Of a stretch of 12,562 bases of DNA, positions 1 to 11,751 are shown piece by piece (position 1 is the stretch's first letter; every line of letters begins with the position of its first letter). Source of the stretch: an uncultured Oscillospiraceae bacterium (GTDB lineage: Bacteria; Bacillota_A; Clostridia; Oscillospirales; Oscillospiraceae); assembly GCA_947631675.1 (NCBI GenBank), contig CANRMG010000042.1:1-12562 (forward strand), read 5' to 3'. The notes under the pieces are model-generated. The model did not search any database. It worked only from the letters and a program-made list of their open reading frames with translations, and was not told the origin of the DNA. The translations under genes were made by a program, and so were the position numbers.

Positions 1-513
1 CCGGACATGCTGAGGGCGTCCACCAACGGCGAGCAGGCCTCCAACCACATCGGAGCCCAGGCGTTCGCAAACTCCGCCGGCTTTACCTTCATCGACGTGC
101 CCAAGAGCGGCACCACCGACCAGATGCTGAGCCTGCGGAGCAGGGAGGCGGATTTCTGCGTGGCGAAGGTGGCCGACATCACCGGACGGGACGCGGACCT
201 GCGCGTGCTGGGCGCGTTCTCCCAGGAGCGGGTGAGCGAGTATCCCGACGCGCCGACCCTGGGCGAGCTGGGGTATTACGATAAGTGGCTGGGCTCCTAT
301 CGCTGCATCGTGGCGCCTGCCGGAACGCCGGAGGGGGCCATCGCCTTTTATGAGGAGGTCTTCCGCCTGGTGATGAACGACAGCGGGTATCTGGCCGCCG
401 CCGAGGAGGCCGGCATCGCTACCGACTATCAGGACGCGGAGGCCACAGCCGCCCTGATCGAACAGCAGCAGGAATTCACCGAGGGCCTGGAAGAGGACTT
501 CTGGTCCGAGTGA
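1..513 (+). CDS. TctC/Bug-family tripartite tricarboxylate transporter substrate-binding protein, 3' part
   Basis: The gene is cut by the window start; 170 C-terminal residues are visible in frame 1 from base 1, and the ATG at 7 is internal. The fragment reads like the second lobe of a TctC/Bug periplasmic-type binding protein. It has a stretch about gaining access to a pocket by proportion of bound ligand (VPKSGTTDQM, then a region where family members carry the 'GG..D' pocket segment), the PDAPTLGELG segment corresponding to the usual 'PDVPT..E.G', and the APAGTPEGAI segment near the start of the last helices. Such lipoproteins capture carboxylates outside the membrane and deliver them to a TctAB permease, which would be expected upstream of the window. 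The stop lies 30 bp before the dTMP kinase gene with no terminator between, so the two may be co-transcribed. The ligand cannot be told. Confidence 0.72.
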   Translation, partial: PDMLRASTNGEQASNHIGAQAFANSAGFTFIDVPKSGTTDQMLSLRSREADFCVAKVADITGRDADLRVLGAFSQERVSEYPDAPTLGELGYYDKWLGSYRCIVAPAGTPEGAIAFYEEVFRLVMNDSGYLAAAEEAGIATDYQDAEATAALIEQQQEFTEGLEEDFWSE

Positions 514-543
514 TACCGCAGGGGAAAGAGAGGCGGACGGAGC

Positions 544-1203
544 ATGGATAAGAAAGGCAGACTCATCGTTATCGAGGGCGTGGACGGCAGCGGCAAGGCC
601 ACCCAGGCCAAGCTCCTCTATGAGGCGCTGCTGGCCCGGGGAGAGCGGGTTATGAAGGTGTCCTTCCCGGACTATGACAGCGACTCCTCCGCCCTGGTGA
701 AGATGTACCTGGCCGGTCAGTTCGGGAAAGAGCCGGGAGACGTGAACGCCTACGCCGCCTCCAGCTTCTACGCCGTGGACCGGTACGCCAGCTATAAAAA
801 GGACTGGGAAGGGTTCTACCTCTCCGGCGGCATCGTGGTGGCTGACCGGTACACCACCTCCAACGCGGTGCACCAGTGCTCCAAGCTGCCGGAGGAACAG
901 TGGCCGGGCTTCCTGGACTGGCTGTTCCATTTTGAATATGACCTTCTGGGCATCCCCGCGCCGGACAAGGTATTATTTTTACAGACAGAGGCCGCCGTCA
1001 CGGAAAAGCTGCTTTTGAAGCGCTACCACGGCGACGCCAGCCGGGAGGACATACACGAGTCCGACCAGGCCTACATGGCCCGCTCCCGCGAAGCTGCGCT
1101 CTACTGCGCCCAGCGCCTGGGCTGGGTCACTGTCCAATGCACCCGGGGCAGCGCTATGCGCTCTGTGGAGGATATACACGGGGAGATCATGAAGATCGTA
1201 TAA
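544..1203 (+). CDS. tmk: Thymidylate kinase (dTMP kinase)
   Basis: This 219-residue cytoplasmic P-loop kinase should phosphorylate dTMP to dTDP using ATP in dTTP synthesis. The P-loop GVDGSGKAT is at residues 12-20; the usual serine before the threonine is alanine here, a substitution tolerated in P-loop kinases because the lysine and threonine remain. FPDYDSD (41-47) corresponds to the family's 'FP.Y.S..' substrate loop, and DRY (101-103) is the conserved dTMP kinase motif. The segment around 151-182 should be the LID with its arginines. Length is slightly above the usual 205-215. A purine-rich GAGAGGCGG lies a few bases upstream of the ATG. It follows the binding-protein gene by 30 bp and is followed by two hairpins, so it is the last gene of its transcript. 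A related deoxynucleoside kinase is the alternative, but the DRY motif favours tmk. Confidence 0.88.
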   Translation: MDKKGRLIVIEGVDGSGKATQAKLLYEALLARGERVMKVSFPDYDSDSSALVKMYLAGQFGKEPGDVNAYAASSFYAVDRYASYKKDWEGFYLSGGIVVADRYTTSNAVHQCSKLPEEQWPGFLDWLFHFEYDLLGIPAPDKVLFLQTEAAVTEKLLLKRYHGDASREDIHESDQAYMARSREAALYCAQRLGWVTVQCTRGSAMRSVEDIHGEIMKIV

Positions 1204-1210
1204 AAAAACA

Positions 1211-1235
1211 TGCCCCGCCGCGATACGGCGGGGCA
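1211..1235 (-). terminator. Hairpin with U-tract on the minus strand, downstream of tmk
   Basis: A perfect 10-bp GC-rich stem (1211-1220 with 1226-1235, loop CGATA) is flanked on its left by a run of seven A (1202-1208). Read on the minus strand this is a stem followed by a T run, so it should stop transcription arriving from the right. In the + direction no T run follows, so on its own it would be a weak stop for tmk. Confidence 0.6.
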
Positions 1236-1256
1236 TACTGCTGCTTTGATGTGTAT

Positions 1257-1306
1257 AACGAAAGCCCTGTGACCGCCATTTGGCGGCCGCAGGGCTTTCG
1301 TTTTTT
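1257..1306 (+). terminator. Strong rho-independent terminator after tmk
   Basis: An outer 13-bp arm (1257-1269) pairs with 1290-1302, and an inner CCGCC/GGCGG stem (1273-1277 with 1282-1286) with loop ATTT sits inside it. Six T follow at 1301-1306. This is a classical intrinsic terminator for the tmk transcript. Confidence 0.9.
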
Positions 1307-1352
1307 GTGCGTTCATGCCCTGTGGAAAATGTTAAGAACAGAACAAAAACAC

Positions 1353-1381
1353 TTGTTATTATGTTTATAATATGCTATTAT
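1353..1381 (+). promoter_or_regulatory. Sigma-A-type promoter with extended -10 for the polysaccharide export operon
   Basis: TTGTTA (1353-1358) and TATTAT (1376-1381) are 17 bases apart, and the -10 is preceded by TGC, making an extended -10. The surrounding 1320-1430 stretch is much more AT-rich than the genes. About 110 nt of leader would precede the permease start at 1494. Confidence 0.55.
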
Positions 1382-1493
1382 CGTTGTTGAGACAGCGGGA
1401 TTATTTTTTATAAAAGTATTATGGGTGTTGTTTTGGCCATTTTTTGGTGTGTCATGGCATAGAGCCTCAGAATCCCAACTAGGAAACAGACAA

Positions 1494-2939
1494 ATGGAGA
1501 GACGGCAGTCGGAAGAGGTAAATCTGAGAAGAGCGATCATCACAGCGATCCTGGGGTACGTCTGTCTGGTCGTGCTTTTCTATGTTCTGGCGGGCCATCA
1601 GCTCCACTTCAGGGCATCCCGGGGTAACCTTGAGATGCCGCCGGCGGAGGCCGGGACGGTGGAGCTTGCCCAGGGCGCGGTCGTTGAACAGTCGTTCTCT
1701 GTAAAGATACAGCGGCTGCAAAATATATCCGTGCAGTGGGGGACCTACTACCGGCCCAACAGCGGCACGGTGACCATGGAGCTCATAAACCAGGCGGATG
1801 GCTCGGTGGTGCTGAGCCAGAGCTTTGACGCGGCGGCCATCACGGAGGGCGGGACCACCACCATGACGGCGGCGGAGCCCATCGAGACGGTGTACGATGC
1901 GCCGCTGCTGCTGCGGATCTATGCTGACTCCCAGCCTGGCAGCGCGGCGTCGCCCATGATGTCGTCCTCCGTTGTGCAGGAGGGTTTCTCTCTGTCCTTG
2001 AACGGCGAGCCCACAGAGGGCGTGCTGTGCTTCTCTGTCAGCGGCGAGGACTACATATGGACAGGACTGCACTACTGGGAGTTCGCGGCGGCGTTCGGGG
2101 TGATGCTGGCCCTGGCGGCGGTGTTCATATGGTACAGGTATAAAAAGGGCAAACACAGCTATGTGGTGAACGCCCTGGTGGCCATGCGGAAGTACCGGTT
2201 CCTCATCCGGCAGCTGGTGGGGCGGGATTTCAAGACGAAGTACAAGCGCTCCGTGCTGGGTGTGTTTTGGAGTTTTTTGAACCCGCTGCTGACCATGGCG
2301 GTGCAGTATGTGGTGTTCTCCAATCTGTTTCGCTTTGACGTGCCCCATTATCAGGCGTACCTGATCATCGGCATCGTATTCTTCAACTTCTTCTCCGAGT
2401 CTACGGGCATGGCCCTGGGTTCCATCATCGGCAACGCCGGGCTCATCACGAAGGTATATGTACCCAAGTATATCTATCCCCTGACCCGGGTGCTGTCGTC
2501 CCTGGTGAATCTGGTCATTTCTCTCATCCCGCTGCTGCTGGTGACGCTGGTTTCCGGCATCGTGCCCACAAAGGCGTATCTGCTGGTGCCCTTCGTGCTG
2601 GTGTGTCTGACGGTGTTCTGTCTGGGCATCGGTCTGCTGCTGGCGGCGCTGATGGTGTTCTTCCGGGACGTGCAGTTTCTGTGGGGCGTGCTGACTATGA
2701 TCTGGATGTATGTGACGCCTATCTTCTATCCGGCCAGCATCCTGCCAAAGAGCGTGGCATGGGTGCTGGATGTGAACCCGCTGTACTACTTCATCACCTT
2801 TGCCCGGACCTGCTTCATGGACGGGATAAGCCCGGAACCCATCGTGTATGTGAAGTGTTTTTTGATGGCATTTGTCACACTGCTGGTGGGCGCGCTGGTG
2901 TTCCGAAGGAGCCAGGACCGGTTCGTGCTGTATCTGTGA
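1494..2939 (+). CDS. ABC-2 type polysaccharide/teichoic acid export permease with N-terminal extracytoplasmic domain
   Basis: This is the membrane subunit of an ABC exporter for lipid-linked cell-surface glycans (Wzm/TagG type), 481 residues. I chose the ATG at 1494 because AGGAAA lies 7 bases upstream and a hydrophobic helix follows soon after; the frame is open from 1425, but the upstream part is AT-rich leader. Residues about 14-33 form a first membrane helix and about 40-190 a non-hydrophobic, probably beta-rich extracytoplasmic region. Residues 196-213 form a second helix ending in a basic stretch, and from about 233 the standard ABC-2 permease domain begins (RDFKTKYKRSVLG, then FWSFLNPLL). 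This domain has roughly six helices, with the conserved P-rich segment MYVTPIFYP and NPLYYF near the end. Typical Wzm/TagG proteins are about 260-280 residues, so residues 1-215 are an added module. The ATPase gene starts 7 bp downstream. Confidence 0.88.
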   Translation: MERRQSEEVNLRRAIITAILGYVCLVVLFYVLAGHQLHFRASRGNLEMPPAEAGTVELAQGAVVEQSFSVKIQRLQNISVQWGTYYRPNSGTVTMELINQADGSVVLSQSFDAAAITEGGTTTMTAAEPIETVYDAPLLLRIYADSQPGSAASPMMSSSVVQEGFSLSLNGEPTEGVLCFSVSGEDYIWTGLHYWEFAAAFGVMLALAAVFIWYRYKKGKHSYVVNALVAMRKYRFLIRQLVGRDFKTKYKRSVLGVFWSFLNPLLTMAVQYVVFSNLFRFDVPHYQAYLIIGIVFFNFFSESTGMALGSIIGNAGLITKVYVPKYIYPLTRVLSSLVNLVISLIPLLLVTLVSGIVPTKAYLLVPFVLVCLTVFCLGIGLLLAALMVFFRDVQFLWGVLTMIWMYVTPIFYPASILPKSVAWVLDVNPLYYFITFARTCFMDGISPEPIVYVKCFLMAFVTLLVGALVFRRSQDRFVLYL

Positions 2940-2946
2940 GGGCGTT

Positions 2947-3675
2947 ATGGGCAAGACGGTGATAGAAGTAAACGACGTGACGATGCGGTTTCGGATGAAC
3001 AACGACCGCATCATGTCGCTGAAAGAATTTGTGACCACAGCGATCCGGGGGAAACTGGCGTACAACGAGTTCACGGCGCTGGACCACGTGTCGTTCACGG
3101 TGGAGAAGGGCCAGACCCTGGGGCTCATTGGGCGCAACGGCGCGGGGAAGAGCACCATGCTGAAGGTCATCTCGGGGATATTGAAACCCACGGAAGGTTC
3201 TGTGCGGACGGAGGGGAACATCGTGCCCATGCTGGAGCTGGGCAGCGGGTTCGACTTCGATCTGACGGGGCGGGAAAACATCTTCCTGAACGGCGCCATC
3301 CTGGGCTACAGCGAGGAATACCTGCACGCAAAGTACGGGGAGATCACGGCCTTCTCGGAGCTGGGAGAGTTTCTGGATATGCCGATCCGCAACTATTCGT
3401 CGGGGATGCTGGCGCGGCTGGCGTTCTCGGTGGCGTCCATGGTGGAGCCGGAGATACTGATCGTGGACGAGATACTGTCCGTGGGCGACGTGGAGTTTCA
3501 GGAAAAGAGCCGTGCGCGGATGCTGGAGCTGATGGGCGGGGGAACCACGGTGCTGTTCGTCTCTCACAGCATGGAGCAGATACGCCAGATGTGTGACAAG
3601 GTGCTATGGCTGGAGCAGGGGCATGTGAAGATGGCCGGGCTCACGGACGAGGTATGCGACGCCTATGTGCTGTGA
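2947..3675 (+). CDS. ABC transporter ATP-binding protein, polysaccharide export (Wzt/TagH type)
   Basis: This 242-residue ATPase should power the permease encoded 7 bp upstream. The start at 2947 was chosen because it just follows the permease stop; the frame is open further upstream only as a shadow of the permease gene. Walker A is GRNGAGKST at 62-70, the signature is YSSGMLA at 150-156, and Walker B is ILIVDE at 170-175 with the family-typical ILSVGD continuation. The switch histidine is in SHSMEQ (His207). The N-terminal insert around residues 20-45, between the first strand and the ALDHVSF segment, is typical of Wzt/TagH. It ends just after the ATPase core, so it lacks the C-terminal carbohydrate-binding domain of some Wzt proteins; selection of the exported glycan must rest elsewhere, perhaps on the permease's extra domain. 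Confidence 0.93.
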   Translation: MGKTVIEVNDVTMRFRMNNDRIMSLKEFVTTAIRGKLAYNEFTALDHVSFTVEKGQTLGLIGRNGAGKSTMLKVISGILKPTEGSVRTEGNIVPMLELGSGFDFDLTGRENIFLNGAILGYSEEYLHAKYGEITAFSELGEFLDMPIRNYSSGMLARLAFSVASMVEPEILIVDEILSVGDVEFQEKSRARMLELMGGGTTVLFVSHSMEQIRQMCDKVLWLEQGHVKMAGLTDEVCDAYVL

Positions 3676-4019
3676 GACGGTACATCGAGGCGGTGACGCG
3701 GAGCATTCTTGCGTTCAGGAAGGAGAACGGCCCTCTGACGGCGGCGCGGGAGGAATACTTTCTGCGGAAGCTGGCGGTGGTCGTGGTGAGCTATTTCGCG
3801 GTGGCGCTGGTGAAAAACCCGGACAAACGACAGGGCCGGCGGGACGCGGAGCGGTACTGGACATGGCTGGAGAGCGAGGAGCCGGAGCTTTTGCGCCGGA
3901 CAGCAAAAAAGTATAAGATGCTGTGCCTGTTCAGCCGGTTGCGGCTGTCCCCGGCGCTGTATCAGGGGATGCTGGATACGCGGCTGTATAAGGCGTTCCG
4001 GCAGATATGGACCAATTGA
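3672..4019 (+). CDS. Short protein resembling the C-terminal part of a family 2 glycosyltransferase (probable remnant)
   Basis: The frame carries 115 residues from a GTG at 3672 that overlaps the ATPase stop codon (GTGA), an arrangement suiting translational coupling; ATG 3654 is an alternative start. The protein is basic and helical, with no membrane segment. Its composition and order (a segment like FRKENGPLT, then a helix ending LVKNPDKR, an RYWTWLE segment and an arginine/lysine-rich end) recall, from memory of clostridial polysaccharide loci, the C-terminal helical tail of GT-A family 2 glycosyltransferases. No catalytic part (no DXD, no nucleotide-sugar fold) is present. It lies between the exporter ATPase and glf, where a glycosyltransferase is expected, so I infer that about 200 N-terminal residues were lost. 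An independent small protein is possible. Confidence 0.5.
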   Translation: MRRYIEAVTRSILAFRKENGPLTAAREEYFLRKLAVVVVSYFAVALVKNPDKRQGRRDAERYWTWLESEEPELLRRTAKKYKMLCLFSRLRLSPALYQGMLDTRLYKAFRQIWTN

Positions 4020-4037: not shown

Positions 4038-4736
4038 ATGGCAGCATATGACTATCTGATCGTGGGCGCGGGATTATATGGCGCGGTGTTCGCCCGGGAG
4101 ATGACGGACCGGGGCAAAAAGGTGCTGGTCATCGACAGGCGTGACCACATCGCCGGCAACATCTATACAGAGGACGTAGAGGGCATCCAGGTCCACCGGT
4201 ACGGTGCCCACATCTTCCATACCAACGACAGGAATGTATGGAATTATGTAAACCAATTTACCGAGTTCAACCGCTACACCAACAGCCCGGTGGCCAACTA
4301 CCGCGGCGAGATATATGACCTTCCCTTCAATATGAACACGTTCAACAGGATGTGGGGCGTGGTGACGCCGGACGAGGCCAAGCGGAAGATAGAGGAACAG
4401 CGGGCGGCGGCAGGGATCACCGAGCCCCGGAACCTGGAGGAACAGGCCATCAGCCTGGTGGGCACGGACATCTACGAGAAGCTGGTGAAGGGCTACACCG
4501 CCAAGCAGTGGGGCCGGCCCTGCACGGAGTTGCCGGCGTTCATCATCCGGCGGCTGCCGGTGCGGTTCACCTACGACAACAACTACTTCAACGCCCTCTA
4601 CCAGGGCATCCCCATGGACGGCTACACGAAGATGGTGGAGCGGATGCTGGAGGGGATAGAGGTCCGGCTGGGGACAGATTACCTGGCTGATAAGGCAGAA
4701 CTGGACGCACTGGCGGAGAGGGTGGTCTACACCGGT
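4038..4736 (+). pseudogene. glf: UDP-galactopyranose mutase, N-terminal 233 residues only
   Basis: Glf interconverts UDP-galactopyranose and UDP-galactofuranose with reduced FAD in the cytoplasm, feeding galactofuranose into surface glycans; that fits the exporter upstream. The FAD-binding Rossmann motif GAGLYGAVFARE is at residues 9-20, the IDRRDHIAGN segment at about 34-43, and YGAHIFHT at about 55-62. The central helical substrate region follows to the ERVVYTG strand ending at residue 233. In the family this continues into about 135 more residues (YTGPID... and the C-terminal FAD segment), which are absent. From 4737 the sequence is the antisense of a TRAP permease, so the open frame runs on to 5009 with about 90 unrelated residues. 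The truncated protein lacks part of the FAD and substrate site and should be inactive. It starts 18 bp after the previous gene. Confidence 0.85.
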
Positions 4737-4741
4737 CACCT
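4734..4741 (+). repeat. Left arm of short inverted repeat at inversion boundary
   Basis: GGTCACCT here is the reverse complement of AGGGGACC at 5657-5664 with one mismatch (7 of 8). The perfectly matching outer four bases GGTC/GACC coincide with the point where both reading frames break. Confidence 0.6.
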
Positions 4742-5606
4742 GGATATAGGGCAGTCCCAAGGTCTCGGCGATGATGAAGGCCGCCGCCCCCATGATGGGG
4801 GGCATGATCTGCCCGCCCGTGGAGGCGGACGCCTCCACGGCCCCGGCAAAATCGTCCTGGTATCCGGTCTTTTTCATCAGGGGAACGGTGACGGAGCCGG
4901 TGGTCATCACGTTGGCCGCGGGGCTGCCGGAGATCATGCCGAACACGCCGCTGGCCACCGCGGCGGCAATGGCGGTGCCGCCCCGCCTGTGCCCCAGCGC
5001 GCCCGTTGACAGATCCACGAAAAACCGCGCCGCGCCGGAGTATTCCAGCAGCGTCCCGAACAGCACGAACAGGAATATGTACGTGGCAGACACGCCCACG
5101 ACCGTGCCGAAGACGCCCTCAGTGTTCATGGTCAGGGACGCTATCACCTGCCGCCAGCCGTACTCCCGGTGGCCCAGCTGCCCCGGCAGCACATGGCCAA
5201 ACAGGGCATAGGCCAGGAAGATCACCGTGATGATGGGCAGGGCCCACCCCACCCGCCGGCGGGTGGCGTCGATGACCAGCACGATGAGCGCCGCGCCGAC
5301 GGCCAGGTCCGCCGCCGTTGGGAACATGATGCGCACCGCCATGTCGTACCAGTTGAAGTACACGTATACCGCGATGGCGGCGGCCGCCAGGGCGCAGAGG
5401 ATGTCAACGACCCAGGCCGCGTCCGGTTTCTCCCGTCTGGACGCGGCGTAAAGGTATATGAGCACCAGGGCGAAGCCCACGTGGATGCACCGCTGTTCCA
5501 TGGTGGCAAGGGTGCCGAAGCCCGCCGTCAGCACCTGGAACAGCGCCATGGCCACGGCGATGACGCTCATGATCTTCGGTATCGCTTGTGTGAGCCGTTT
5601 ACTCAT
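4734..5606 (-). pseudogene. TRAP transporter fused permease (TAXI type), N-terminal half, on inverted segment
   Basis: The minus strand from ATG 5606-5604 encodes 291 codons matching the first half of a fused TRAP permease, which uses an ion gradient to import an organic acid captured by a TAXI binding protein. About five membrane helices (the DctQ-like small-subunit equivalent) occupy roughly residues 8-155. The start of the large DctM-type domain follows, with the motifs GMISGSPAANV, the GSVTVPLMKKTGY segment typical of TAXI-associated permeases, and GQIMPPIMGAAAFII. Sense ends at ...LPYIQVT (codon at 4736-4734). Beyond it, the frame stays open to 4074 only as antisense of glf. The start lies 3 bp after the TAXI stop codon (TGA 5612-5610), the usual tight coupling. 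The rest of the gene is on the opposite strand at 5665-6660, so this copy is split. Confidence 0.85.
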
Positions 5607-5609
5607 GCA

Positions 5610-5663
5610 TCATTTGCCTTGTATCTCGTCATAATAGCGGGCCGCGCCCGGATGGAAGGGGAC
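5610..5663 (-). pseudogene. C-terminal 17 codons of a TAXI-family TRAP solute-binding protein
   Basis: Reading the minus strand from 5663, VPFHPGAARYYDEIQGK is followed by TGA at 5612-5610. The 'PxHPGAxxYY' ending is characteristic of TAXI (TRAP-associated extracytoplasmic immunogenic) solute receptors. Its position 3 bp before the TRAP permease start codon is exactly where a TAXI gene should end. Nothing of the rest of the receptor is in the window: at 5664 the sequence switches to the other half of the permease. This is a gene tail left by rearrangement. Confidence 0.7.
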
Positions 5664-5664
5664 C
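5657..5664 (-). repeat. Right arm of short inverted repeat at inversion boundary
   Basis: AGGGGACC is the partner of GGTCACCT at 4734-4741. At only 8 bp it is shorter than typical invertase sites; it could equally be the microhomology of an end-joining event or of a strand-switching artefact. Confidence 0.6.
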
Positions 5665-6660
5665 CTGGCGGCGTTCATCCCGGCGATACTCTATTATGGG
5701 GCCATTATCTTCATGATCGTCCTGCACGCCAAGCGGATGGATATAAAGGGCCTGCCAAAGGAGCAGTGCCCAAAGGTATGGCCCGTGCTGAAAAGCGGGT
5801 TTTACCTGGCGTTTCCGCTGCTTCTGCTGATATTCCTCATGGCGTTTATGGGCTGGTCTCCGCTGAAGTCCGGCTTCTGGTCTATCATGGCGTCCATCGC
5901 GGTGTCCTTTCTGCGGCGGGAGACCTGGCTGACGCCCAGGCGGCTGTTTGAGGCGTTTGAGAAGGGCGCTATGGCCTCGCTGACGGTGGCCGTCATTTGC
6001 GCCATCTCCGGCATCGTGATAGGCACGCTGTCCCTGACCAGCCTGGGTCTCAAGTTCTCCTCCATCCTGGTGTCCCTGGCCGGCGAGAACATGGTGGTGC
6101 TGCTGGTACTGGCGGCCGTCGCCGGCGTCATCCTGGGCATGGGCATGTCCACCACGTCGGTGTACATCGTGCTGGCGGTGCTGCTGGCCCCGGCGCTGAC
6201 GAAGATGGGCGTGGACCCTCTGGCGGCGCACCTTTTCGTATTCTATTACGGCTGCCTGTCCGCCATCACGCCGCCGGTCGCCACCGCCTCCTTCGCTGCC
6301 GCCGCTTTGACGGGCAGCCATCCGTTCAAGCTGGGGTTCCAGGCGTGGAAGCTGAGCCTGTCGGGGTACATCATTCCGTTTATGTTCATCTTCAACCAGG
6401 AGCTGCTGTTCCAGGGCTCGCCCCTGGGCATCGTCAAGGCGCTGGTGACGGCGCTCGTCGGCGTCTATGCCCTGAGCTGCAGCATAGAGGGGTATATGCG
6501 AAAGCCTCTGCACTGGGCATTGCGAGTGCTGCTTTTCGCCGCGGCCCTGCTGCTCATCGACGCCGGGCTCTGGACCGACCTGGCCGGGCTGGTGATCGTG
6601 GCGGGGGTCTATTGGCTGGAGAGAAGGGAAGATCCTGCACAGGATCTTACGAGGGGATGA
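5665..6660 (+). pseudogene. TRAP transporter fused permease (TAXI type), C-terminal half
   Basis: The + strand from 5665 (LAAFIPAILYYGAII...) encodes 331 residues that continue the permease whose first half lies on the minus strand at 5606-4734; the frame joins exactly. It contains the remaining membrane helices of the DctM-type domain, the GMGMSTTSVYIVLAVLLAP segment, and the YYGCLSAITPPVATASF segment typical of TRAP large subunits. A helical C-terminal extension ends at the TGA at 6658-6660. The first in-frame ATG is at 5713, with no convincing ribosome binding site, so it may not be translated alone. The two halves together give 622 codons including the stop, a usual length for this fused family. 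Confidence 0.85.
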
Positions 6661-6855: not shown

Positions 6856-6931
6856 TGGTCGGAGTGAGGTGACTTGAACACCCGACCTCCTGGTCCCGAA
6901 CCAGGCGCGCTACCAACTGCGCTACACCCCG
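6856..6931 (-). tRNA. tRNA-Pro (anticodon CGG)
   Basis: The minus strand folds as a 76-nt cloverleaf. The acceptor stem CGGGGTG pairs with CACTCCG (one G-U pair), discriminator A and an encoded CCA follow. The anticodon arm CCTGG-TTCGGGA-CCAGG gives anticodon CGG, the T arm is GGGTG-TTCAAGT-CACCT with one G-U pair, and the first base pair C1-G72 is normal for tRNA-Pro. It reads CCG only by strict pairing. It lies 131 bp downstream of tRNA-Gly on the same strand and just before a strong terminator. Confidence 0.95.
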
Positions 6932-7062
6932 TTACCTTATTCCCCCTTGGGGCCCCCGCGAAAGCCCAATGCAATGGGTTTCGCGGGGAGAAGGAGGAAG
7001 TTTTCCGACCGATGGAGAGGACGCGCTTGCGCGGCCACGACATCTTCGGGAAACTTCCGACG
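6932..7062 (-). other. Structured spacer between the two tRNA genes
   Basis: This 131-bp stretch has no gene but two large inverted repeats. Arms 6954-6968 and 6975-6988 form a roughly 14-bp GC-rich stem with one bulged base. Arms 6996-7008 and 7046-7058 match at 12 of 13 positions and enclose a CGCG stem at 7022-7033. There is no T run after either hairpin in the minus direction, so they do not look like standard terminators. Confidence 0.5.
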
Positions 7063-7136
7063 TGGAGCAGGTGAAGGGAATCGAACCCTCGTATTCAGCT
7101 TGGGAAGCTGATGTTCTGCCATTGAACTACACCTGC
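7063..7136 (-). tRNA. tRNA-Gly (anticodon CCC)
   Basis: The minus strand gives a 74-nt cloverleaf. The acceptor GCAGGTG pairs with CACCTGC, with discriminator T and encoded CCA. The anticodon arm TCAGC-TTCCCAA-GCTGA gives anticodon CCC, and the T arm is GAGGG-TTCGATT-CCCTT with one G-U pair. It reads GGG by strict pairing. Its promoter is directly upstream at 7148-7176, with transcription expected to begin about five bases before the mature 5' end. Confidence 0.95.
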
Positions 7137-7147
7137 GCGGCTCAAAG

Positions 7148-7176
7148 ATTATATCACCTGCCCCGTGAGATTGCAA
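7148..7176 (-). promoter_or_regulatory. Sigma-A-type promoter for the tRNA-Gly/tRNA-Pro unit
   Basis: On the minus strand TTGCAA (7176-7171) is followed after exactly 17 bases by a perfect TATAAT (7153-7148). The -10 lies 11 bases before the tRNA-Gly 5' end. Confidence 0.85.
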
Positions 7177-7223
7177 GCATAAAATTGCCGCCCCGCCTCA
7201 TAGCTTGTACGGGAGGGACGACG

Positions 7224-7400
7224 ATGAACTATGTGCGGCTTTTGATCGCGGCGGCGCTGTTCCTGGGCGCCGTCTGTGCGAAGGTGTACATCCCCGACCG
7301 GGTGGAGGGGCCTATCGCGGCGGTGCGGGAGATGATCGACAGGGACAGCTTCGCGCTGCCCCTGCCGGAGGAGGCGCTGGCGTGGGTGGACTTGCCTTAA
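7224..7400 (+). CDS. Small single-pass membrane protein upstream of the SpoIVFB-like protease
   Basis: This frame encodes 58 residues from the ATG at 7224, preceded by GGGAGGG (7211-7217) at 6 bases. Residues about 3-20 form a hydrophobic helix or signal anchor, followed by a roughly 38-residue mixed-charge segment with a predicted helix (VEGPIAAVREMIDRD). The final codons contain the ribosome binding site of the protease gene and overlap its start by 19 bp, so the two are translationally linked. The layout recalls the membrane-anchor N-terminus of SpoIVFA/M23-like proteins that sit in this position next to SpoIVFB, but without the extracytoplasmic domain. That comparison is inference; I do not recognise a named family. 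Confidence 0.6.
   Translation: MNYVRLLIAAALFLGAVCAKVYIPDRVEGPIAAVREMIDRDSFALPLPEEALAWVDLP
7367..7374 (+). promoter_or_regulatory. Ribosome binding site that decides the M50 protease start
   Basis: GGAGGAGG lies 7 bases before GTG 7382, inside the coding region of the preceding small gene. It favours GTG 7382 over the next in-frame GTG at 7403. Confidence 0.6.
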
Positions 7401-7942
7401 GCGTGAGCCCCGGGTTCCTGCTGCTGGCGGCGGCAGTATACTTCCTGGGCGGGGCGGGGGCCCTGGCGGCCATGGGCGCGGCGGCCCTGGCCCATGAGCT
7501 GGGGCATCTGGCCGCCATGTTTCTGGCCGGAGCGGGGGTGCGGGGCCTTCGCGTCACCGCCTGCGGGCTGGTCATCGACTACGGCGGGGACCTGACGCGG
7601 CGTGAGGAGATGGGCATATTGGCGGCGGGGCCCCTGGCGGGGCTCTTTTTCGCGGCGCTTTGTTTTATAACAGACATACCCTTTCTCATCTACACCGGCG
7701 CCATCGCGCTGCTGGCGGCCTTGTTCAACCTGCTGCCGGCGCTGCCCATGGACGGGGGGAGGCTGGCGCTGTATATGCTGGAAGGGGTCATGAGCGAGCG
7801 GGCGGCGGCCATGGTGCTGCGCGTCACAGGCACGCTCTGCGCCCTGGGGGTGTTCGCCACGGGGCTCTGCATCCGCTCTGTCAGCGCGGCGGCGGTGGGA
7901 ATTTGGCTGGGAGTACTTGCCAATTTTCCCGATATGCGCTAA
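7382..7942 (+). CDS. SpoIVFB-like site-2 protease, M50 metallopeptidase family
   Basis: This 186-residue polytopic membrane protein is an intramembrane zinc protease. The zinc site is HELGH at residues 38-42 in a hydrophobic helix, and the third-ligand motif NLLPALPMDGGRL is at 116-128 with Asp124. Hydrophobic stretches at about 10-48, 78-95, 100-120 and 145-180 give four to six membrane passes. B. subtilis SpoIVFB cleaves pro-sigma-K during sporulation; the short length without CBS or PDZ domains and the neighbourhood (TIGR03960 and DUF2344 genes next) match SpoIVFB loci. The start GTG 7382 is chosen from the strong GGAGGAGG and the 19-bp overlap with the previous gene. Whether it acts on a sigma factor here is inference, as no other sporulation gene is in the window. 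Confidence 0.83.
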   Translation: MGGLALSVSPGFLLLAAAVYFLGGAGALAAMGAAALAHELGHLAAMFLAGAGVRGLRVTACGLVIDYGGDLTRREEMGILAAGPLAGLFFAALCFITDIPFLIYTGAIALLAALFNLLPALPMDGGRLALYMLEGVMSERAAAMVLRVTGTLCALGVFATGLCIRSVSAAAVGIWLGVLANFPDMR

Positions 7943-7951
7943 ACTGCCGGT

Positions 7952-9796
7952 ATGGAAATGAACGAACACATCGACGCCCTGCTCCGGCAGGTACAGCGTC
8001 CCGCCCGGTATGTGGGCGGCGAATACAATCAAATCGTGAAGGACAAGGCGGACGTGGACGTGCGCTTCGCTTTCTGCTTCCCGGATACCTACGAGATCGG
8101 CATGTCCAATCTGGGGATGAAGATCCTCTATGGCCTCATCAACGACATGCCCGGGGTGTGGTGCGAGCGGGTGTTCGCCCCCTGGGGCGACATGGCGGAG
8201 AAGCTGCGAGCCGAGCATATTCCCCTGTGGGCGCTGGAGAGCGGCGACCCTTTGTCCGACTTTGACGTCATCGCCTTCTCCATCGGCTATGAGATGGCCT
8301 ATACCACCGTGCTGGACATGCTGGACCTGGGCGGCGTGCCCCTCCACGCGGCAGAGCGCACGGGTCTTGAACACATGGTCATGGCCGGGGGCGGGTGCAT
8401 GTGCAACATCGAGCCCATGGCGGACTTCTTCGACCTGTGCTTTCTGGGCGAGGGAGAGGACGTGGACCGGGAGGTCCTGGAGCTCTACCAGAAGGCCAAG
8501 CATGAGGGCTGGGACAAGCCCCGGTTTTTGCGTGAAGCAGCCAAGATAGATGGCGTCTACATCCCCAGCCTCTATGATATATCCTACAACGCCGACGGCA
8601 CTGTGGCGGCCATCACGCCGAAGGACGGCGCGCCGGATAAGGTGCGCAAGCGCATCGTGGAGGACTTCGACGCCTGCTATTTTCCTACAAAGCCGGTGGT
8701 GCCCTCCACAGAGATCGTCCACGACCGGGTGAGCCTGGAGGTGTTCCGGGGCTGCATCCGGGGCTGCCGGTTCTGCCAGGCGGGCCACACCAACCGGCCC
8801 GTCCGCTCACGGAAGGCGGAGACCCTGCTCCGGCTGGGGAAGGAGACCTTGGAGAACACGGGCTATCAGGAGCTCAACCTCTCCAGCCTCAGTACCAGCG
8901 ACTATAGGGAGCTGTCGGAGCTGTGCGACGGGCTCTTGGACTACTGCCGGCCCCGGGGCATCAGCCTGAGCCTGCCCTCTCTGCGGGCGGACAACTTCTC
9001 CATGGACATCATGCACCGGGTCCAGCAGGTGCGAAAAAGCGGCCTCACTTTCGCCCCCGAGGCGGGCACCCAGCGGCTGCGGGACGTCATCAACAAAAAC
9101 GTCACCGAGGAGGACCTTCTCAATTCTTGCCGCATCGCTTTCCAGGGCGGCTGGAACGGGGTGAAGCTCTATTTCATGCTGGGCCTGCCCACGGAAACGG
9201 ACGAGGACGTGCTGGGCATCGCGGACCTGGCAAAGAAGGTATACTGGACCTGGCGGGAGGTCGCTCCCGATAGGAGCCGGGGCGTGCGCATCACGGTGAG
9301 CACCTCCGAGTTCATCCCCAAGCCCCATACGCCTTTCCAGTGGGAGGCGCAGATAAGCCGGGAGGAATACCTGCGGCGGGTGAAACTGCTCACGGACGCC
9401 CTGGCCAGGACCAAGAGCGTTACCTATAACTGGCACGACGCCGAGATGAGCCTGGTGGAGGCGGCCCTGGCCCGGGGCGACCGGCGGGTGGGCGCGGTCA
9501 TAGAGACGGTTTGGAGAAACGGCGGCCGGCTGGAGAGCTGGAGCGAGTATTTCTCCCTGGACCGGTGGCTGGCGGCCTTCCCGGCCTGCGGGTTGGACAT
9601 CGACTTTTACGGCACCCGGGCCCGGCCTACGGAGGAGCTGCAGCCCTGGGAGCACATGGACTGCGCCGTGAGCCGGCGGCATCTGGAGCGGGAGCGGAAG
9701 CGGGCCTATGAGGGCGTGCTCACCCCCGACTGCCGGGCGGGCTGCGCTGGCTGCGGGGCGGCCAGCCTTTTGAAGGAGGGCGTGTGCCGTGGATAA
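7952..9796 (+). CDS. TIGR03960-family B12-binding domain radical SAM protein
   Basis: This is a 614-residue protein of the conserved TIGR03960 family. The N-terminal part (about 30-200) is a cobalamin-binding-like domain. The radical SAM barrel begins with RGCIRGCRFCQAG, in which Cys268, Cys272 and Cys275 form the CX3CX2C ligand set for the 4Fe-4S cluster. LTFAPEAGTQRLRDVINKN and the KLYFMLGLPTET strand (about 400-410) are barrel segments typical of this group. A cysteine-rich tail (CRAGCAGC) near residue 595 may hold an extra metal or cluster. The substrate is unknown to me; the constant pairing with DUF2344 has led to suggestions of RNA or tRNA modification, which remain unproven. The start is 9 bp after the protease stop, and the 3' end overlaps the DUF2344 gene by 8 bp. 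Confidence 0.9.
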   Translation: MEMNEHIDALLRQVQRPARYVGGEYNQIVKDKADVDVRFAFCFPDTYEIGMSNLGMKILYGLINDMPGVWCERVFAPWGDMAEKLRAEHIPLWALESGDPLSDFDVIAFSIGYEMAYTTVLDMLDLGGVPLHAAERTGLEHMVMAGGGCMCNIEPMADFFDLCFLGEGEDVDREVLELYQKAKHEGWDKPRFLREAAKIDGVYIPSLYDISYNADGTVAAITPKDGAPDKVRKRIVEDFDACYFPTKPVVPSTEIVHDRVSLEVFRGCIRGCRFCQAGHTNRPVRSRKAETLLRLGKETLENTGYQELNLSSLSTSDYRELSELCDGLLDYCRPRGISLSLPSLRADNFSMDIMHRVQQVRKSGLTFAPEAGTQRLRDVINKNVTEEDLLNSCRIAFQGGWNGVKLYFMLGLPTETDEDVLGIADLAKKVYWTWREVAPDRSRGVRITVSTSEFIPKPHTPFQWEAQISREEYLRRVKLLTDALARTKSVTYNWHDAEMSLVEAALARGDRRVGAVIETVWRNGGRLESWSEYFSLDRWLAAFPACGLDIDFYGTRARPTEELQPWEHMDCAVSRRHLERERKRAYEGVLTPDCRAGCAGCGAASLLKEGVCRG

Positions 9797-10421
9797 ACTG
9801 AGACTGAAGTTTTCCAAAATAAGCCGGGCGGTGTATCTTTCCCACCTGGACCTGATGCGCACCATGCAGCGGGTGTTCTCCCGGGCGGGGGTGCCCCTCA
9901 AATACTCCGAGGGTTTCAACCCCCACGCCAAAATATCCATCATCCTGCCCCTGAGCGTGGGAACGGCCAGTTTATGCGAGTATATGGACTTCGCCCTCAC
10001 GGAGGACCGGGACCTGACCGCTCTGCCGGCCACGCTCAACGCCTATATGCCCGAGGGCATCGAGGCCCTGGAGGCATACGAGGCCCCCTGCAAGGGCGCG
10101 GAGCTTGCGTGGCTCCGGCTGGAGGGGGTCATGAAAGGCGGCCATGACGCGGCGTTCTATACGGCGTTCTTTTCGCAGGATTCCATTCCTGTCACCCGCA
10201 AGGCCAAGCGGGGCATGCGCACCGACGACATCGCGCCGTCTATCCAGGCGGTGCAGTTCGACGATATGGATGACGGCGTGGCGGCAAAGCTGATCCTCCA
10301 CGCCCAGGACCCCACCGTGAGCCCGGAGCTGATGATGGCGGCCCTGGGGGAGAGCGCCCCGGGATACTGGCGCTTCGCGCGGCTGGAGGCGTTCAAGGAG
10401 GGTATGACGCCCTTCCGTTAA
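9789..10421 (+). CDS. TIGR03936-family DUF2344 protein, partner of the radical SAM protein
   Basis: The 210-residue cytoplasmic protein starts at GTG 9789, with AAGGAGGG (9773-9780) 8 bases upstream, and overlaps the radical SAM gene by 8 bp. The N-terminus [32 protein letters not shown] and the [20 protein letters not shown] segment are hallmark DUF2344 sequences; in some bacteria this domain is fused to the TIGR03960 protein. It is likely to work in the same complex or reaction, of unknown chemistry. The C-terminal half (from about 115) is less conserved. It is the last gene of the cluster that begins at 7224; a new promoter follows 27 bp downstream. Confidence 0.88.
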
Positions 10422-10447
10422 AAAGTGGATATTTTTCGGAAAAATAC

Positions 10448-10476
10448 TTGCATATCCGGGAAAAGTATGCTATTAT
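10448..10476 (+). promoter_or_regulatory. Extended -10 promoter for rplS
   Basis: TTGCAT (10448-10453) and TATTAT (10471-10476) are 17 bases apart, with TGC directly before the -10. The region is AT-rich compared with the flanking genes. It has the same TGCTATTAT element as the promoter at 1353-1381. Confidence 0.75.
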
Positions 10477-10481
10477 ACCCG

Positions 10482-10567
10482 CGCATGAAAATGCGTCTAC
10501 TAGGGCGGTCCGCTGCCGGATGAGAGAAATTCCCGGTATGAACGTCTATTTAAGGAAGGTTTGTATC
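10482..10567 (+). promoter_or_regulatory. rplS 5' leader with hairpins and ribosome binding site
   Basis: The roughly 85-nt leader starts with CGCAT-GAAA-ATGCG (10482-10495), a stem closed by a GNRA-type tetraloop. A second stem GGCGG-TCCG-CTGCC (10504-10517) follows, and AAGGAAGG (10552-10559) lies 8 bases before ATG 10568. L19 leaders that bind the protein for autoregulation are known in Firmicutes, but I cannot confirm a match to that family by eye. Confidence 0.45.
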
Positions 10568-10909
10568 ATGGATCTCATCAATGCGCTGACCCAGCAGTAC
10601 ATGAAGCCGGAGCTGCCCGAGATGAACGTGGGCGACACTGTCCGCGTCACCGTCCGCATCAAGGAGGGCAACCGCGAGCGCAACCAGGCGTTCGAGGGCA
10701 CCCTGATCGCGAAGAAGCACGGCGGCATCAACGAGACCATCACCGTGCGCCGTATCTCCTACGGCGTGGGCTGTGAGAAGGTCTTCCCGGTGCATTCTCC
10801 CACTATCGTCAGCGTAGACACCGTCCGCAAGGGCAAGGTCCGCAGGGCGAAGCTGTACTACCTGCGCGACCGCGTGGGCAAGGCCGCCAAGGTCCGGGAG
10901 AAGCTGTAA
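10568..10909 (+). CDS. rplS: 50S ribosomal protein L19
   Basis: This 113-residue basic protein is L19 of the large subunit, located at the 30S-50S interface. [32 protein letters not shown] and the [23 protein letters not shown] segment are diagnostic, and the end [22 protein letters not shown] is the classical C-terminus. The frame is open from 10448, but the first part is promoter and leader; ATG 10568 with AAGGAAGG is the right start and gives the normal family length. A terminator follows 17 bp after the stop. The order rplS-lepB-rbgA is conserved in Firmicutes. Confidence 0.97.
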
Positions 10910-10926
10910 AAACCGAAAAGACCGAC

Positions 10927-10953
10927 AAAAAAGAGGCCTTGAGCCTCTTTTTT
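10927..10953 (+). terminator. Rho-independent terminator after rplS
   Basis: GAGGC (10933-10937) pairs with GCCTC (10943-10947) and is followed by six T (10948-10953), with a matching A run (10927-10932) before it that lengthens the stem to 11 bp. The flanking A and T runs let it work in both directions. Confidence 0.88.
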
Positions 10954-10954
10954 G

Positions 10955-10984
10955 TTGCGTTTAGAGGGAGTTATATTGTATAAT
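10955..10984 (+). promoter_or_regulatory. Possible promoter for lepB
   Basis: A perfect TATAAT (10979-10984) lies just after the rplS terminator. The best -35 is TTGCGT (10955-10960), 18 bases away and a poor match. A promoter is needed here because the terminator separates rplS from lepB. Confidence 0.45.
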
Positions 10985-11067
10985 CATTTGTTGAGCGTAT
11001 GGTAATCGCTCCCGGCGGCGGGAAAAAGCGGCAGCCGGGAGATATAAGGACAGGAGGCGGAAGGCCA

Positions 11068-11751
11068 ATGCGCGAAATGGGAAAGCACGCCGTGGACGCA
11101 CGTCCCGTGGCGGAACAGGAGGATCAGGGGGGAAAGAAGGAGAAAAAGCCCGTCGATCCCTATAAAGATACGTACGAGTGGATACACTGCATCGTGGTGT
11201 CGGTCATCATATGTGTGCTGGTGTTCGTGCTGGTGGCCCGGGTGATCCAGGTCCAGGGCCGGAGCATGCTCCCCAACCTGGAGCAGGGCGACCGCATCAT
11301 CATCACCCGCCTGGCGGGGGATTATGAGCAGGGCGACATCGTGGTGCTGAAGGCGGAGAAGTTCAAGAACGAGCCCCTCGTCAAGCGCATCATCGGCACC
11401 GGCGGCCAGACCATCACTCTGGACTTTGCCACCGGCGACATCACTGTGGACGGCCAGGTGCTGGATGAGCCCTACATCTTCGAGCGGACCATCGACAGCT
11501 ACCACATCATGGACCCGCAGTACTATGACGTGTACGGCATCGACCCGGAGAAGGACGTGACGGAGACCAGCGTGACCATCCATGTGCCGGAGGGGCATCT
11601 CTTCTGCATGGGCGACAACCGCAACAACTCCAGCGACAGCCGCGTCTCCACCATCGCCTATATCGACACCCGGGACGTGATGGGCAAGGCGGTGTTCCGT
11701 CTGTATCCCTTCCACAAGATGGGCGCCATCTACGGCGCAAAGCAGTCTTAA
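11068..11751 (+). CDS. lepB: Signal peptidase I (type I, S26 family)
   Basis: LepB cuts signal peptides from exported proteins at the outer face of the membrane. With the start at 11068 (AGGAGG at 11052-11057) it has 227 residues; ATG 10999 in the same frame would add 23 but lacks a ribosome binding site. A charged N-terminal segment (1-38) is followed by one membrane helix (about 41-60). The catalytic Ser66 lies in QGRSMLPNL, the general base Lys106 in LVKRIIGTGG, and the box E motif GDNRNNSSDSR is at 182-192. An insert of about 20-25 residues at 140-165 before the final beta region is longer than in the smallest Gram-positive enzymes. The stop overlaps the rbgA start (TAATG), so the two are co-translated. 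Confidence 0.94.
   Translation: MREMGKHAVDARPVAEQEDQGGKKEKKPVDPYKDTYEWIHCIVVSVIICVLVFVLVARVIQVQGRSMLPNLEQGDRIIITRLAGDYEQGDIVVLKAEKFKNEPLVKRIIGTGGQTITLDFATGDITVDGQVLDEPYIFERTIDSYHIMDPQYYDVYGIDPEKDVTETSVTIHVPEGHLFCMGDNRNNSSDSRVSTIAYIDTRDVMGKAVFRLYPFHKMGAIYGAKQS

Follow-up and report, generated by a model that had tools for sequence, protein, structure and literature searches.

Gene content and the inverted segment

The window, which is the whole stretch of 12,562 nucleotides analysed here from an uncultured Oscillospiraceae bacterium, encodes, in order, tmk, an ABC exporter, a glycosyltransferase fragment, part of glf, the rearranged pieces of a TRAP transporter, tRNA-Pro, tRNA-Gly, and a conserved block (Table 1). 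The latter reaches from a radical SAM gene (TIGR03960) to YlqF and is collinear with the corresponding regions of the relatives G028, G024, and G015 over the extent compared in each case. At the other end of the window (1-544), a TctC-type binding protein gene terminates 30 bp before tmk (513/544). These two genes are about 3.66 kb apart in G028 and G024, and in G028 a TctA-like open reading frame (ORF; assigned by reading) lies between them. This spacing was not counted as an additional deletion, with match positions in G025 and G032 placing both genes close together.

Table 1. Features of the variable region and of the rearranged segment, in window coordinates.
Feature	Position	Strand	Basis
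ABC exporter of polysaccharide type (permease, ATPase); upstream part of the putative island	1425..3675	+	NCBIfam matches below curated cut-offs; 85% to G028, 77% to G001
Glycosyltransferase family 2-like fragment, C-terminal part only, 115 codons	3672..4019	+	About 30% identity to one G004 protein (PF00535)
glf (UDP-galactopyranose mutase), cut after 232 codons at conserved YTG-P	4038..4733	+	Pfam GLF; 89% to G028
Left junction, GGTC common to glf and reversed permease	4734..4737		Sequence comparison at the join
Inverted segment, 931 bp: last 17 codons of TAXI solute-binding protein, then permease codons 1-291	4734..5664	-	92% to L002 9072-10000 (uninverted there)
5' permease part, residues 1-291	4734..5606	-	PF06808; TIGR02123 TRAP_fused for intact relative P0001
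3' tail of TRAP-TAXI solute-binding protein, VPFHPGAARYYDEIQGK and stop	5607..5664	-	Residues 1-16 identical to end of L002 protein (TIGR02122)
Right junction, GACC common to reversed binding-protein tail and permease	5661..5664		Sequence comparison at the join
3' permease part, residues 292-622 and stop	5665..6660	+	PF06808; nucleotides 92% identical to L002 as far as 6630
tRNA-Pro(cgg), right border of variable region	6856..6931	-	tRNA gene call and relatives

The original prediction held that a permease gene is split between the two strands and can be rejoined in frame to the exact base, and both its coordinates and its codon counts were reproduced. The first 291 codons (MSKRL...YIQVT) are read off the minus strand from 5606 to 4734, the remaining 331 codons and the stop follow on the plus strand (5665-6660), and reverse-complementing 4734-5664 rebuilds an in-frame, 622-residue TRAP fused permease with 0 bases gained or lost. 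Ahead of the permease start, the inverted piece carries the end of the gene for a TAXI solute-binding protein on the minus strand; the first 16 of the 17 residues of this tail match the end of the L002 binding protein exactly. The broken gene belongs to the same family as the TAXI-type TRAP transporters (TIGR02122, TIGR02123), but differs from them in that the permease is split and only the tail of the binding protein is present.

At the permease join, the breakpoint is ambiguous within 4 bases (GGTC). The segment ends form an 8-bp inverted match, GGTCACCT/GGTCCCCT, in which 7 of 8 bp agree, in line with the earlier claim that GGTC/GACC breakpoints lie within an 8-bp inverted repeat with one mismatch. 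Only 1.9% of 200,000 random inversions within the window had at least 4 ambiguous bases, indicating that the short match is likely to have mattered, and 0.065% of such inversions reached inward matches of at least 7/8. The 7/8 match is therefore more than a blunt join would be expected to show by chance. Taken simply as an inverted repeat it is unremarkable, since 1094 8-bp inverted pairs of the same quality were found in 4400-6000, and the flanks beyond it have no similarity (11 of 52 positions agree). The permease site also contains a possible hairpin, CCAGG-TGAC-CCTGG, with 5-bp arms (CCAGG/CCTGG). It is not unusually stable, given that 55 of 200 shuffled sequences fold at least as well, and was rejected as a trigger on those grounds.

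Intact relatives and a third breakpoint

The uninverted order that the original prediction proposed to look for in related genomes is present in two of them, the uncultured Oscillospiraceae bacterium isolates Lapin-032 bin129 (L002) and Lapin-008 bin48 (L001). In both, the binding-protein gene is followed directly by a whole, uninterrupted permease, and the inverted segment of the window is collinear with theirs (92% for L002, 87% for L001). Of the best 120 among 6878 permease homologues, 119 run through the join (rejoined residues 281-302) within a single alignment. The sole exception, P0085, is the window's own chimeric ORF, a 510-aa product of the minus strand (4074-5606) in which permease residues 1-291 are fused to antisense glf; it is labelled DctM in the database and is a spurious protein. 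One of the 119, P0009, shares 98.9% identity with the rejoined protein over 467 residues that include the join. P0001, which is 92% identical to the rejoined permease, matches TIGR02123 over its full length with a score of 665.7 (cut-off 320.65), of the 413 positions in the PF06808 profile the window halves cover 3-167 and 170-407, respectively, and the L002 binding protein matches TIGR02122.

A query of 4720-5680 against 300 family-group genomes returned some match in 139, and the best among the matches listed, that of G002, covers 4734-5663 and ends there. Four others among the matches listed (G223, G074, G271, and G179) begin 1-14 bases outside the left breakpoint, extensions that are taken as alignment overhang. 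With a query of 4734-6660, 34 of 35 genus-group genomes gave some match; among the matches listed only G002 covers the whole query, in two pieces that meet at the right breakpoint in opposite orientations, and the remaining genomes show short stretches of about 26-350 bases.

Both permease halves look selected. The dN/dS values against L002 are 0.16 (inverted half) and 0.12 (other half, last codons omitted), those against L001 are 0.13 and 0.09, and that of the glf part against G028 is 0.13. Such low values suggest that the genes were under selection until recently, and hence that the event is young or not real. Together with the homologues that span the join, they bear out the earlier proposal that the parent of the contig had an intact permease.

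Flipping the segment back leaves glf joined out of frame to the binding-protein tail and then a stop (...YTGPLPSGRGPLL*), so that glf and the binding-protein gene stay truncated and the rearrangement is not the simple reciprocal inversion that had been proposed. The glf part covers positions 1-88 of 203 of the Pfam GLF profile, and glf of G028 has 376 codons. P0121, a Glf protein identical to the window at 233 of 233 residues, continues beyond the cut into a normal C-terminal region. Since the flip heals the permease only and P0121 extends beyond the glf cut, there are three breakpoints, in glf, in the binding-protein gene, and in the permease, all at GGTC/GACC. The event took away the remainder of glf and the beginning of the binding-protein gene, which from gene lengths amounts to at least about 1.4 kb of missing sequence. 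Such a rearrangement would inactivate the permease, the binding protein, and glf. Of the explanations offered earlier, a one-off microhomology event and an artefact are both plausible, with the amendment that the event comprised three breakpoints with an intervening deletion and not a simple inversion.

The two near-identical proteins are encoded on short contigs with oddities of their own. P0009 (478 aa, 1922-bp contig) terminates in a frameshift that would result from the loss of 91 bp somewhere in 6222-6319 of the window. P0121 (355 aa, 1426-bp contig) lacks 11 residues, DTDNYQGNAVV, of a well-kept block whose motif was matched in 110 of the 116 Glf homologues with 340 aa or more (from the best 120). 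Of the six misses, P0121 and P0236 are gapped, the latter at the same place and for longer, P0207 is divergent, and P0149, P0164, and P0220 carry substitutions only.

A variable region between tmk and tRNA-Pro

The distance from tmk to tRNA-Pro is 5653 bp in the window, 2.9 kb in G015, 5.6 kb in G029, and 29.5 kb in G024, and these differences between relatives mark the interval as a variable region. The stretches available for G036, G026, G025, and G023 were too short for this comparison, and in G037 no tmk match was found within the 14.8 kb before its tRNA-Pro. Since tmk, a variable region, and tRNA-Pro/tRNA-Gly also occur in G015, G029, and G024, the contig ends agree with those relatives.

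Two relatives carry an exporter and a TRAP pair on a single strand of a single contig. In G001, 21 kb separate the ATPase (27419-28150) from the solute-binding protein (49323-50315), and the permease lies at 50319-52184; the run opens with the ABC exporter, continues through glycosyltransferases, other genes, and AMP-binding enzymes, and closes with the binding protein and the permease (nine genes named by Pfam, the remainder by reading). In G002, the ATPase (44929-45771) is 8 kb from the solute-binding protein (53721-54746) and the permease (54743-56593), and its ABC exporter is 67% identical to that of the window in part of the ATPase. It is therefore plausible that the exporter/glf and TRAP parts of the window belong to one island. 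The gene orders support an ancestral arrangement of exporter ... binding protein - permease whose interior would have been lost in the window, and by this comparison the window looks like a contracted, rearranged version of the relatives' island. Glf and TRAP genes were not found together on one relative contig, and G001 C11 24000-62000 gave no glf match.

Further features recur around the island. The TRAP-TAXI pair comes last in a series of polysaccharide-type genes (L244 16222-19094, L243 6323-9184, window 4734-6660). In G001 (Pfam) and G002 (by reading) an AMP-binding enzyme stands before it, and tRNA genes are next downstream in G002 and the window; none were found in L001. A tyrosine integrase-like gene (PF00589) lies upstream of the ABC exporter of the G001 island (L242 15-1963), and one (by reading) lies upstream of that of G028 (L150 reverse complement 518-3843), with a sugar-nucleotide gene between. 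In the window, tmk occupies the position of these integrase-like genes.

The start codon overlapping the ATPase stop is in a different frame from the glycosyltransferase fragment, a further truncated gene. Its assignment derives from a single G004 protein found in two overlapping loci, and its search against the 35 genus genomes gave 0 matches, an empty answer that, with the method used, shows nothing. As a probable second lesion of the island, the fragment fits island decay.

Origin of the rearrangement

An exact in-frame rejoin mimics a programmed switch until the outer sides of the breakpoints are checked, and here that check revealed two more truncated genes. The reading that we favor, and to which we give an even chance, is a one-off, non-programmed rearrangement of the polysaccharide/TRAP island by a double inverted template switch at 4-bp microhomology. 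The path and direction that we infer would begin with DNA synthesis from the tRNA side that halted in permease codon 291. Synthesis would then have changed strands through a GGTC/GACC match within the terminal part of the binding-protein gene and run 931 bp in the reverse direction, returning to its stopping point in the permease, where GGTC would have served for another switch, this time into glf. The outcome would be an inversion of 931 bp and the loss of the sequence from glf codon 232 to the last 17 codons of the binding protein. Both joins have GGTC/GACC and no long repeat, as microhomology-mediated template switching requires, and both junctions fall at the same permease site, which is expected of one event and improbable for two separate events.

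Inversions in starving Escherichia coli have been explained by two inverted template switches, with replication stalling at secondary structures in the proposed path, and are near-reciprocal with small deletions or insertions at their ends (Lin et al., 2011; PMC3161906). Like those inversions as described in that account, the window has two inverted joins that are not exactly reciprocal and has lost sequence at an end, and its 931 bp are within the one to two kb allowed by the model (PMC3161906). Unlike them, it lost at least about 1.4 kb and had two further genes cut, where the account of the E. coli cases gives only small end deletions or insertions (PMC3161906), and the single window hairpin tested folds no better than shuffles.

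An origin in the cell, to which we likewise give an even chance, is in our view more likely than one in the tube. The competing possibility, which is a serious one even if we would not expect it to prove correct, is a technical chimera: a molecule formed by multiple displacement amplification (MDA) or library preparation and present in a low-coverage contig, while glf, the binding-protein gene, and the permease gene are all intact in the cell. Of 475 MDA chimeras, 406 (85%) were inverted, 337 of these 406 joined sequences under 10 kb apart, and in most of them priming involved 2-21 matching bases (Lasken and Stockwell, 2007; PMC1855051). The window has this form twice. As in such chimeras, it combines an inverted join with an intervening deletion, the interiors of glf and of the binding-protein gene being missing, and the complementarity is within the 2-21 nt described there (PMC1855051). 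Near-identical permease (P0009) and glf (P0121) sequences extend beyond the cuts on further contigs from this strain or a very close one, an observation that is predicted equally well by an artefact, and those short contigs themselves have odd deletions (equal to 91 bp and 11 residues). The number and placement of the joins speak against a chimera. Two within 931 bp of a contig consensus are many compared with the 495 chimeras in 10,878,753 mapped bases, or about one per 22 kb of reads, on our reading of that study (PMC1855051), and the second lies exactly beside the first; two joins at one shared site within a contig consensus are unlike the MDA chimeras in its account. The glycosyltransferase lesion is in direct orientation, which is rare for MDA chimeras under 10 kb (11 of 475; PMC1855051). 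Moreover, right of the tRNAs no gap of at least 6 bases occurs in 7060-10906 relative to G028, G024, and G015, short indels there being confined to 10907-11120. A check for damage in the radical SAM core gene favors neither origin: among the best 120 of 8000 homologues, the closest has 95% identity over a full-length protein and none combines near-identity with damage, but the database is clustered at 90%.

The same product could have arisen in the cell in two steps, by a deletion that fused glf to the binding-protein tail at GGTCCC and a later, plain inversion of 931 bp between GGTC/GACC. The flipped sequence does have a clean join of glf and binding protein at GGTCCC, and each step requires short matches only, but the inversion would need to hit the older deletion scar within 4 bases, a coincidence of about 1 in a thousand (a rough estimate over the 5653 bp between tmk and tRNA-Pro). 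We therefore regard two separate events as unlikely. It is more doubtful still that the island end is a hot spot in which very short matches repeatedly delete or invert DNA without a dedicated recombinase, such that the window, P0009, and P0121 would each have arisen independently. If this were true, transporter and glf genes would be lost or flipped in many cells.

We give hardly any credence to the phase-variable switch that the original prediction had considered, here taken as an invertible element that toggles the transporter through a recombinase encoded elsewhere in the genome. The exactness of the permease reconstruction on flipping and the tyrosine integrase-like gene (PF00589) near the ABC exporter of the related G001 island would be compatible with such a switch. 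Against it, the opposite orientation leaves glf and the binding-protein gene cut, so that the locus is not restored; with the binding-protein gene gone, the permease would be without a partner at this locus. The inverted match extends to 7 of 8 bp only with none beyond (11/52), and the short-match site is not conserved in L001. An inverted repeat of 8 bp is too short for the recombinases known to act at such sites. The earlier statement that the window contains no recombinase gene stands for the genes identified, in that none was found among the window proteins scanned with Pfam (9) and NCBIfam (7). A programmed switch is thus very unlikely, there being no restorable alternative state, no repeat of useful length, and no identified recombinase. 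The window resembles the invertons of gut bacteria, as far as these are characterized in the portions drawn on here (PMC11892184, PMC8748976), in having a DNA segment in inverted orientation, and differs from them in having no useful-length repeat, identified invertase, or functional alternative state. By the length of its inverted repeat and by whether both orientations are meaningful, it does not qualify as an inverton. Judged by title, nothing related to phase variation of TRAP transporters by inversion was found in the literature searched, nor any paper on intragenic invertons in bacteria.

A chimera between distant species was rejected, with the nearest relatives all within one genus group of 35 genomes: G028/G024 for the right part (89-91%), G028 for glf (89%) and the ABC exporter (85%), and G002 for TRAP (92%). 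The window thus need not mix distant genomes, and exchange between close species may have contributed. A viral origin was dismissed, as three viral-contig scans contained no permease or radical SAM relative and glf relatives at most 71% identical.

If the rearrangement is an artefact, the 510-aa P0085 is a false protein in the database. If it is real and took place in the cell, the window would document the decay of an island by template switching in a gut Oscillospiraceae lineage.
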